Shown: in pieces, positions 16,854 through 24,894 of the stretch
Layout of the letters: every line of letters begins with the position of its first letter
Numbering within the stretch: the stretch's first letter is position 1
Source: a virus
Strand: one strand, 5' to 3'
Length of the DNA: 26,917 nt
IMG/VR virus record: IMGVR_UViG_3300030390_001811
Span: 1 to 26,917 of that record
Notes under the pieces: generated by a model
Databases searched by the model: none
Told to the model about the DNA's origin: nothing
What the model saw: the letters and a program-made list of their open reading frames with translations, nothing else
Position numbers and translations under genes: made by a program

Positions 16854-17075
16854 ATGACCCCAGCACAAATAACCAAAAAAGGAGGGCTTACCGTTACTAA
16901 AATGGTAAGCCTGACCAATACGCCACGTAGAACGATATACGACCTGTTCGAACGTGACCAATCCAAGTTTATCGACTTAGCAATTAAAGCGCGTACTGAG
17001 CTATACAGGCAGGAATTAGCGCGTGTTGCTGATGAGTATCACCAGGATATTAATAATTTAGAGGGGGAGAGATAA
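16854..17075 (+). CDS. HTH-like small protein (73 aa)
   Basis: MTPAQITKKGGLTVTKMVSL and TNTPRRTIYDLFERDQSKFI form a probable helix-turn-helix. A helical tail (ELARVADEYHQDINNLEGER) follows. The stop overlaps the glycosyltransferase ATG (TAATG), so expression is tied. It may regulate the cassette. Confidence 0.55.
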   Translation: MTPAQITKKGGLTVTKMVSLTNTPRRTIYDLFERDQSKFIDLAIKARTELYRQELARVADEYHQDINNLEGER

Positions 17076-18286
17076 TGATTTTCAATCCGCACAATGAGTG
17101 GCTAGGAATGCCAGAGTTCAAACAAGAAAAGAAAGAAGCCTTTAGGGTTGTTAATTTCTTTATTGGTGAACGCAAGATAATCTGTCGATTCGATAACGAT
17201 CGAGACGTTGACTCATTTATTTTTCATACTGGAATAAACCTACCTTATGAAGCAAAGCGAATAAATCTAGCTATTGGCGATTCAGAATACCTAAGCAAGT
17301 TATTTGATCAAAAGATAACCGACAAAAGTAAGTCTATTTGGTATCCATACAAATCCCACTGGGGGTTAGCCAAAAATCGCTGGAAGACTGAGACAGATGT
17401 CTTGCCAAAATATCCTGTCTACATTGTGTCAAAGGGTCGCGCTCACAATGGACTAACAACTAAGGCGCTTACAAATATGAAAGTTTGCCATTTTATTGTC
17501 GTAGAGGATGGCGAACTAAATGATTACTTACTGAGCCCCTCTGTTTCTACATCTTACGCAACATTATTGACACTGCCAAAGTCTTACCTAGATGATTACG
17601 ACACTTGTGACGATCTTGGAAACACTAGAAGCAAAGGACCAGGAGCTGCTCGCAACTTCTGCCTAGATCATTCAAAAGAGAATGGCTTTAAGCGCCATTG
17701 GGTTATGGATGACAATCTAGATGCTTTTCATCGCCTCAATGACAATGAAAAATACGAAGTAGAAACAGGCGCAACACTTTTAGCTGCTGAGGATTTCGTA
17801 GACCGTTATTCTAATGTCCCTGTTGCTGGATTAAATTATTATTCATTCTGCAAAAAGACAGACAAAGTTCCACCATTCATTAAGAATACGCGTATTTACT
17901 CATGCTTACTTATTGAAAATGATGCTGGCTATCGCTGGCGTGGTCGCTATAACGAGGACACTGATTTATCGTTAAGGGTATTAAAAGATGGCCTTTGCAC
18001 CATTCAATTTAACGCATTTTTATGCGGAAAGGTTACGACTCAGCGCATGAGGGGCGGAAACTCTAAAGAATTTTATGACAAAGAGGGAACATTACCAAAA
18101 TCTAAGATGCTTGAAGACTTGCATCCAGACGTATCTAAGGTCGTGTGGCGCTTCAACCGCTGGCATCACTCCGTCAACTACAAGCCATTTAAAGATAATG
18201 AGCTTATTAGAATAAGCGATAAGCCAGAAAATAAAATAAACAATTACAGCATGAGCCTAACCAAAGAGGGTTGTCACAATGAGTAA
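17075..18286 (+). CDS. TET-associated-type glycosyltransferase (TAGT-like), DNA-modification candidate
   Basis: 403 residues in two parts. The N-terminal about 105 residues (NEWLGMPEFKQEKKEAFRVV ... ITDKSKSIWYP) form a domain I have seen attached to other phage DNA-acting proteins. The C-terminal GT-A-like domain starts at YPVYIVSKGRAHNGL. It carries GPGAARNFCL, WVMDDN (about 209-214, the probable DxD-type metal site), RYNEDTDLSLRVLKDG (catalytic acidic cluster near 293-297) and FLCGKVTTQRMRGGN. These are TAGT hallmarks (PF20691 pattern from memory). Family members are thought to glycosylate hydroxymethylated pyrimidines in phage DNA. No TET/JBP dioxygenase is in this window. It overlaps the Mom-like gene. 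Confidence 0.78.
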   Translation: MIFNPHNEWLGMPEFKQEKKEAFRVVNFFIGERKIICRFDNDRDVDSFIFHTGINLPYEAKRINLAIGDSEYLSKLFDQKITDKSKSIWYPYKSHWGLAKNRWKTETDVLPKYPVYIVSKGRAHNGLTTKALTNMKVCHFIVVEDGELNDYLLSPSVSTSYATLLTLPKSYLDDYDTCDDLGNTRSKGPGAARNFCLDHSKENGFKRHWVMDDNLDAFHRLNDNEKYEVETGATLLAAEDFVDRYSNVPVAGLNYYSFCKKTDKVPPFIKNTRIYSCLLIENDAGYRWRGRYNEDTDLSLRVLKDGLCTIQFNAFLCGKVTTQRMRGGNSKEFYDKEGTLPKSKMLEDLHPDVSKVVWRFNRWHHSVNYKPFKDNELIRISDKPENKINNYSMSLTKEGCHNE

Positions 18287-18866
18287 AGAATCTTTCTCAA
18301 TATCAATAATAAGCAAAGATCAATCTGCTGACATACTGCTTAACTATCACTATTTGAAGGATATTAGCAAGACATTTAAAAGTGGTATCAATTACGGGTT
18401 ATTTCACAATAACAGCCTAGTTGGTTGCTGTATATTTACAGGCTTTCCAGTTCCTGAGCTAGTAAAGGGATTGTATGGTCTAGAGCGTGATAATCAAGAC
18501 GGATTTTATGAATTAAGTCGATTATGTATTGAGCCAGGGATACAAGCTACCGAACATAATATAGCAAGCTGGTTTGTATCACGCTGTATAAAGCAACTTA
18601 GAAAAGATTTTAAGGTTAGAGCTATTCTATCCTACGCTGATGAGTCTTTTCATAACGGAACCGTATACCGAGCGCTTAACTTTAAGTATTACGGATTAAC
18701 AACAGCTAAAAAAGACTTTTGGATACTACAGAATGACGGAAGCTACATGAAGCATTCCAGAGGAAAAACCAAAGGCATACCAGGCGAGTGGCGGCCAAGA
18801 ACTCAGAAACATAGGTTCTTACTTACATATGATAAAGCCCTAGAAATTAAATGGACTGAACAATGA
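18279..18866 (+). CDS. Mom-like GNAT-fold DNA-modification protein
   Basis: 195 residues with the pattern of Mu Mom-family proteins: GLFHNNSLVGCCIFTGFPV, FYELSRLCIEPGI, NIASWFVSRCIKQLRKDFKV, then AILSYADESFHNGTVYRALN and FKYYGLTTAKKDFWI. The E-SRL, S-F--R-IK-L and SYAD...G-VY-A-NF-Y-G-T blocks are the family core. Mu Mom converts adenine in DNA to a carbamoylmethyl-type derivative, protecting it from restriction. Overlap with the TAGT gene (8 bp) suggests joint action. The substrate here is unknown. The Shine-Dalgarno is AAAGAGGGTT. Confidence 0.75.
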   Translation: MSKESFSISIISKDQSADILLNYHYLKDISKTFKSGINYGLFHNNSLVGCCIFTGFPVPELVKGLYGLERDNQDGFYELSRLCIEPGIQATEHNIASWFVSRCIKQLRKDFKVRAILSYADESFHNGTVYRALNFKYYGLTTAKKDFWILQNDGSYMKHSRGKTKGIPGEWRPRTQKHRFLLTYDKALEIKWTEQ

Positions 18867-19057
18867 GAACAACAAGCGAAAAAGAGCAGGTAATTAACTC
18901 AAGAACTGAGAATAAACTATCTGAGCAGTCGGCAAGGTCTTATAAGGTATTAGTGGGGAGAAAGAGGATGTCAGTAATTACCATGAATGGAGAAACGAAA
19001 TCCGAAGTAGAGAATAAACTAAGCGGTAAATTCGCAGAATGCGTAACAATGCTTTAA
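18863..19057 (+). CDS. Small basic hypothetical protein (64 aa)
   Basis: MRTTSEKEQVINSRTENKLS, ending KSEVENKLSGKFAECVTML. It contains a repeated ENKLS tetrad-plus motif (residues 16-20 and 50-54). ATGA overlap with the Mom-like gene. Function unknown. Confidence 0.5.
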   Translation: MRTTSEKEQVINSRTENKLSEQSARSYKVLVGRKRMSVITMNGETKSEVENKLSGKFAECVTML

Positions 19058-24799: not shown

Positions 24800-24894
24800 G
24801 TGACTGTGGTGTAACGGTAACATTACAGGCTACACGGTAAAACGTGACCCGGGAGGCGATGCGGGAGATGCGGGTTCGATTCCCGCCAGTCATC
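24800..24894 (+). tRNA. tRNA-like element, anticodon not assignable
   Basis: A 95-nt segment. The acceptor stem is GTGACTG (24800-24806) with CAGTCAT (24887-24893), including one G-U pair. A perfect T-arm is GCGGG-TTCGATT-CCCGC (24870-24886). A D-arm-like GTGT-AACGGTA-ACAT (24809-24823) carries the invariant-type AA and GG. No regular 5-bp/7-nt anticodon arm fits: CACG/CGTG encloses only six bases and lacks U33. The length would suit a class II tRNA, with CCCG/CGGG as variable arm. CCA is not encoded. It is either a divergent tRNA, a decayed one, or a tRNA mimic. Confidence 0.45.

Follow-up and report, generated by a model that had tools for sequence, protein, structure and literature searches.

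We found that a TAGT-family glycosyltransferase encoded by a marine-type phage fragment begins with a separate conserved domain, formed by the first ~104 residues of its ORF, which a preliminary description of this DNA had not picked out. We named this domain MPEF after its motif, W.gMPEF.q...Py..i..RF....D....f...QklT.KtKSiWyP. As judged from profile matches, MPEF marks a widespread branch of the TAGT family, because the TAGT of phage T6, which belongs to the same Pfam family, is unmatched by the MPEF-TAGT profile and has no MPEF. In the fragment analysed here, the fused MPEF-TAGT gene overlaps a gene of the Mom family, and we consider it moderately probable that the two are independent nucleic-acid-modification modules in one early operon, with MPEF-TAGT adding sugar to phage DNA and Mom modifying adenine.

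Source of the window and organization of the operon

The window, by which we mean the whole stretch of DNA analysed, is a 26,917-bp virus contig from IMG/VR that is classed as linear and is therefore probably a fragment. Its layout is lambdoid, with genes for a major head protein, head morphogenesis, portal and both terminase subunits, together with genes for an Erf-like annealing protein, SSB, an O-type replication initiator, a P-like helicase loader, a DnaB-like helicase and an Ant-like protein. Since its large terminase shares 66% identity with that of Escherichia phage HK639, the window probably comes from a temperate, HK639-like gammaproteobacterial phage with a full size of roughly 45-50 kb. 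A megablast of the whole window against phages gave no match, and at the DNA level the window has no close relative among annotated phages. On the plus strand, positions 24800-24894 match the Rfam tRNA family at 38.2 bits; the acceptor and T arms of this tRNA-like element are good, and its anticodon region is odd. ARAGORN finds nothing there by default and reports tRNA-Ser(act) when introns are allowed; a tRNA in decay, a tRNA mimic and an att-like site are all conceivable.

The preliminary description had presented the TAGT and Mom genes as one overlapping unit, and indeed they share 8 nt (18279-18286) within a single operon (Table 1). Plausible ribosome-binding sites precede both starts, that of Mom being a Shine-Dalgarno-like AAAGAGG ahead of the ATG, and small overlapping ORFs lie on both sides. 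The upstream one has 1 nt in common with the TAGT start codon and is not among the recurrent neighbours of TAGT elsewhere. Overlap, ribosome-binding sites and flanking ORFs together indicate that TAGT and Mom are co-transcribed and probably translationally coupled.

Table 1. Features of the MPEF-TAGT/Mom operon, in coordinates of the window.
Feature	Position	Strand	Remarks
73-aa small protein, same operon, directly upstream of TAGT	16854..17075	+	HTH_43 E=0.066, below cut-off
MPEF-TAGT fusion protein, 403 aa	17075..18286	+	MPEF aa ~9-104; GT-A-fold TAGT glycosyltransferase aa ~112-398
MPEF domain, aa 9-104	17099..17386	+	MPEF HMM E=5e-23
TAGT catalytic domain per PF20691	17411..18058	+	DDN aa 212-214, NEDTD aa 293-297
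Mom-family DNA adenine-modification protein (predicted), 195 aa	18279..18866	+	PF25680, phrog_1384, residues common with Mu Mom
64-aa ORF, overlaps Mom end by 4 nt	18863..19057	+	No significant family (Pfam, PHROGs)

The TAGT and Mom proteins

From the letters alone, the two genes had been read as a TAGT-type glycosyltransferase with DDN and NEDTD sites and a Mom-family protein, and profile searches of both had been proposed. These searches bore out the reading, with both matches above the curated Pfam cut-offs. The TAGT ORF matched PF20691 over residues 113-328 (E=3.8e-51; 174.4 bits, cut-off 27.5) and phrog_842, "beta-glucosyl-HMC-alpha-glucosyltransferase" (E=8.6e-52), and the Mom ORF matched PF25680 (E=1.1e-23; 84.4 bits, cut-off 27.1) and phrog_1384, "Mom-like DNA modification protein" (E=2.1e-30). 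A sequence search of solved structures with the two proteins gave nothing meaningful. In the glycosyltransferase, the first site spans D212-D213-N214 and the second N293-E294-D295-T296-D297. Among about 122 distinct TAGTs, D212, D213, E294 and D295 are invariant, while N214 and D297 are each missing in one only. The AlphaFold2 model of the whole fusion is of high confidence (pLDDT 89.6, pTM 0.89); its best PDB fold matches are GT-A glycosyltransferases, with low whole-chain TM-scores, and its best viral structure matches include TAGT-domain proteins. The window TAGT is thus a PF20691 member with a GT-A fold and conserved acidic metal/catalytic motifs.

The window Mom belongs to the same Pfam family as Mom of phage Mu and shares with it residues at H24, Y25, R81, S118, A120, D121, Y130, N134 and F135, at an overall identity of 23%. 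These matching residues point to ordinary adenine chemistry, so that the protein most likely modifies adenine N6 as in Mu, with a predicted N6-carbamoylmethyl-type product. It differs from the Mu system in that no Com-like regulator was recognised in the window and in that the gene sits behind TAGT. Both window ORFs are intact and share 56-77% identity with diverse relatives.

We scanned viral contigs with each window protein, which yielded 80 TAGT relatives and 11 Mom relatives; later scans contributed a further 80 MPEF loci and some 76 Mom loci. The Mom family was found in the window and in none of the 88 other TAGT-bearing records, and neither TAGT nor MPEF was found in any of 87 Mom loci (1.1 Mb in all). 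The TAGT-Mom pairing is therefore rare, and unique in the sample searched. Given that Mom and TAGT travel separately, the simplest reading is that they are two independent modules on different targets rather than a system in which Mom further acylates a sugar. For the same want of co-occurrence, we rejected a functional Mom-TAGT complex. The preliminary description had offered two options, and "two separate base changes" is the better one; its other option, a sugar further decorated by the GNAT protein, is disfavoured both by these counts and by Mom residues (H24, Y25, R81, S118, D121 and Y130) that fit adenine chemistry.

Close Mom relatives are very common in IMG/VR viral contigs, with at least 585 confirmed stretches in one scan. 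In Roseobacter phage CRP-212 (L003:7983-8933), a 316-aa open frame joins a full Mom domain to an apparent MazG-type nucleotide pyrophosphohydrolase. This fusion is hidden in the annotation, where the gene start of the record removes the N-terminal part of Mom.

Linkage of MPEF to TAGT

MPEF has no match in Pfam and, for the window ORF and a stand-alone MPEF, none in NCBIfam. Modelled alone it reached moderate confidence (pLDDT 75, pTM 0.44), and the stand-alone model had no PDB fold match; we claim no fold for it. An RRM-like Pfam match on one ParB-MPEF protein (E=0.003) was below the cut-off and was not used.

By examining 130 distinct TAGT sequences retrieved, we found MPEF linked to TAGT in 126. 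In 78 of the 130 it was a stand-alone gene overlapping or adjacent upstream, in 15 it was fused to TAGT as in the window, in another 15 it lay upstream with other genes in between, and in 18 it formed the C-terminus of an upstream ParB_N protein. In most relatives, then, MPEF is its own gene, the end of which overlaps the TAGT start, with 11 nt as the commonest overlap. Four TAGTs fall outside this pattern: two are parts of a single frame-broken gene (L042), one is cut short where its contig stops (L079), and the last, the divergent TAGT of Lactobacillus phage phi jlb1, is preceded by a ParB_N protein that has no MPEF. Searches with MPEF only, using queries taken from TAGT-linked copies, gave the reciprocal picture. 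Among the best 80 of 553 contig hits in a viral-contig scan, TAGT lay downstream in 75 loci, and the other 5 were cut by a contig end. With tblastn, 19 of 50,697 phage records matched, all 19 of them also TAGT-bearing, and none of 72,556 plasmids did. The association of MPEF and TAGT is thus reciprocal, and the window ORF can be placed in a proposed MPEF-TAGT subfamily, in which MPEF is fused to, or closely upstream of, TAGT. A scan of genome contigs gave a single match, in a gammaproteobacterial MAG (L183).

Some loci hold more than one copy of either part. In T4-like phages, TAGT can be followed directly by another MPEF-like protein, a short one of 58-66 aa (L034:11026-11226, L039:11122-11322, L083:11122-11322 and L267:6077-6256), and the fused proteins of Kuja and PTm1 have a degenerate extra MPEF at the N-terminus. 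Tandem MPEF-TAGT pairs occur at L032:2850-5146 and L265:7692-10380, and in L160 and L162 a second, divergent TAGT lies between MPEF and TAGT. Such tandem pairs and second TAGTs might reflect the stepwise addition of two sugars.

Genomic neighbourhood of MPEF-TAGT

To identify neighbours, we read the representatives of gene clusters and drew on clusters that also contain annotated window genes. MPEF-TAGT copies lie mainly among replication, recombination and packaging genes, which read as DnaB, O-type initiator, terminases, DNA polymerase, SbcC, RusA and helicases. In Vibrio phage henriette 12B8 the gene stands between the clamp loader and dUTPase/DNA polymerase, and in 1.076.O between the portal and head genes. 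Among the genes inserted between MPEF and TAGT are those for an FkbM methyltransferase, a group-1 glycosyltransferase, a second TAGT and other methyltransferases, which fits the building and decoration of a sugar.

Several other neighbours are worth recording. In T4-like contigs, DAHP_synth_1 and a cytidylyltransferase, resembling Kdo synthesis, are directly downstream of MPEF-MTase-TAGT (L145:5752-7162 and L141:4405-4839), a possible hint to the sugar used. Adenine modification recurs beside MPEF-TAGT: a 168-aa protein with an NPPY motif, adenine-methyltransferase-like and with no Pfam match, lies between MPEF and TAGT at L145:4191-4697, L168:4191-4697 and L174:4191-4697; an N6-adenine methyltransferase is encoded two genes downstream of TAGT in 1.124.O; and the window has Mom. 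An N6_N4_Mtase is also encoded by 1.076.O. Finally, between ParB-MPEF and TAGT, L067:9443-9988 and L073:9448-9987 encode a protein of ~180 aa that reads like a 2OG-Fe(II) dioxygenase, with no Pfam match for the L067 copy, and which is a candidate for making a hydroxyl acceptor.

Search for precursor enzymes

In agreement with the preliminary description, the window, a 26.9-kb fragment, showed no recognisable gene for TET, a thymidylate-synthase-type enzyme or a dNMP kinase. A precursor enzyme could be encoded in the missing part of this phage. The thymidylate-synthase family PF00303 was absent from 20 of the 24 MPEF-TAGT records that reach at least 40 kb, in a search that finds gp42 of T6 as positive control. 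The remaining 4, from giant Aeromonas phages, carry PF00303 hits that score as ordinary thymidylate synthase (td) and have 22-23% identity to T6 gp42 or no match to it. Aeh1 and 65 reportedly lack gene 42 (PMC2993671), and with these scores and identities we rejected the Aeromonas genes as a source of hydroxymethyl-C. In Kuja, an Ackermannviridae phage with two MPEF-TAGTs, a thymidylate-synthase-family gene lies about 7 kb away; it shares 41% identity with the td-like gene of phage 65 and only 23% with gp42. A dCMP hydroxymethylase resembling gp42, as in T4/T6-type systems, was thus found neither in the window, which is incomplete, nor in its long relatives. TET/JBP was found in none of 98 records (the window and 97 related ones), but the control genomes gave no match for TET either. 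When most of the annotated non-structural proteins in 1.076.O were scanned directly against Pfam, no TET, 2OG or TS domain appeared.

Since the long MPEF-TAGT carriers have no thymidylate-synthase-type hydroxymethylase, glucosylated hydroxymethyl-C, the known TAGT substrate, is probably not what this branch uses. The preliminary description had taken the overlapping pair, with no precursor enzyme in the window, to suggest an unusual chemistry. The puzzle of the missing precursor does exist, but as a property of the whole MPEF-TAGT branch and not of the TAGT-Mom pair.

Comparison with known systems

The TAGT of T2/T6 falls in the same Pfam family as the window TAGT (PF20691, E=3.7e-9 for T6) and likewise has a GT-A fold (PMC13216743), but it is too diverged for the MPEF-TAGT profile. 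Its gene in T6 adjoins that of the gp42 hydroxymethylase and its product acts after alpha-GT, whereas the window type was without these partners in the records searched. The same paper, from 2026, also describes 288 of 753 TAGT-carrying phage genomes without T-even alpha- or beta-glucosyltransferases, calling their enzymes potentially novel transferases; these solitary TAGTs resemble ours in that respect (PMC13216743). The passages of it that we consulted make no mention of an MPEF or ParB partner, of the lack of a precursor or of Mom, and the words ParB and Mom are absent from its main text (PMC13216743). The TAGT and Mom families, as well as the existence of solitary TAGTs, are therefore already known. 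Among open-licence papers, we found no description of MPEF as a partner or in its ParB_N form, of so nearly obligate a linkage to TAGT, or of phages that have MPEF without a known precursor route.

Discussion

We propose that MPEF-TAGT, as a GT-A enzyme, would transfer a sugar from a host nucleotide-sugar to phage DNA during or after replication; in a TAGT the acceptor would be a base or a base-linked sugar. MPEF, carried elsewhere on ParB_N proteins, would position the acceptor or the DNA, and MPEF or ParB-MPEF would help to choose or present the site; the sugar may sometimes be decorated further. The Mom-type transferase would modify adenine N6. Each module would protect phage DNA from restriction, and both together would mask two different bases. 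This DNA target, the role of MPEF and the protective function are what we regard as most likely, the target by analogy with T6 TAGT, which is described as acting on glucosylated hydroxymethyl-C in DNA (PMC13216743).

The main rival, which we consider unlikely, is that TAGT glycosylates a non-DNA target, such as a virion protein, RNA or a host surface glycan, and that its place among DNA genes is incidental. It owes its rank to the view that the DNA of T4 relatives without hydroxymethyl-C genes is largely unmodified (PMC2993671): as the giant T4-like phages Aeh1 and 65 have MPEF-TAGT without gene 42, the modification would have to be sparse there, or the target is not DNA. A non-DNA target would also agree with the lack of any tested base-hydroxylating enzyme in 20 of the 24 records of at least 40 kb, where the other 4 have only td-like genes, with protein and polysaccharide glycosyltransferases among the PDB fold neighbours, and with the position of the gene between portal and head genes in 1.076.O. 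The FkbM, group-1 glycosyltransferase and Kdo-type genes that adjoin some copies would fit surface-glycan or protein glycosylation as well. Speaking for DNA, the neighbours are mostly replication and packaging genes, MPEF is often carried on a ParB_N protein, and the only characterised PF20691 enzyme cited acts on DNA (PMC13216743).

A conventional route, in which the unsequenced part of the phage encodes a TET/JBP oxidase or dCMP/dUMP hydroxymethylase and TAGT glycosylates hydroxymethylpyrimidines, seems to us improbable. The TAGT name comes from TET-associated DNA hypermodification cassettes, which have the TAGT family in common with the window, and the window is a fragment. TET/JBP would be expected in such cassettes; the searches for it were negative in the window and the 97 related records, though their control was also silent. 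The T6 TAGT does work on hydroxymethyl-C (PMC13216743), and the gene near the Kuja TAGTs is of the right family, though closer to td than to gp42. What argues against this route is the absence of PF00303 from 20 of the 24 long records with a working gp42 control, the td-like nature of the four Aeromonas genes, the reported absence of gene 42 from Aeh1 and 65 (PMC2993671) and the negative Pfam scan of 1.076.O. That Mom acts on the TAGT-added sugar, in a single composite modification, would suit the 8-nt overlap and the translational coupling of the operon, but Mom occurs without TAGT in 87 loci and is absent from 88 other TAGT-bearing records, and its active-site positions match those of the adenine-modifying Mu Mom, which makes this reading very improbable. 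We give almost no credence to chance neighbours of which at least one is decayed and non-functional: the pairing is unique in the sample, but both ORFs are intact, follow plausible ribosome-binding sites, are 56-77% identical to a diverse set of relatives and keep the conserved residues of their active sites.

Returning to the two-module reading, we tentatively extend it to the branch as a whole. MPEF-TAGT might represent a widespread DNA glycosylation that proceeds without hydroxymethylpyrimidines from known enzymes, in which MPEF, sometimes on a ParB-like protein, would supply or present a new acceptor, perhaps in a site-specific manner; in the window phage, the addition of Mom would then give two bases with bulky groups.

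MPEF provides a sequence handle for a large set of TAGTs without T-even glucosyltransferases; it defines their branch, and T6 does not have it. Most long carriers of MPEF-TAGT are without the thymidylate-synthase-type enzymes that make the classical acceptor. As isolated phages with hosts exist (henriette 12B8, 1.076.O, 1.124.O, 65 and Aeh1), the acceptor could be found by mass spectrometry. Whether it proved to be a new glycosylated base or a glycosylated target other than DNA, the finding would be news for phage defence and counter-defence.
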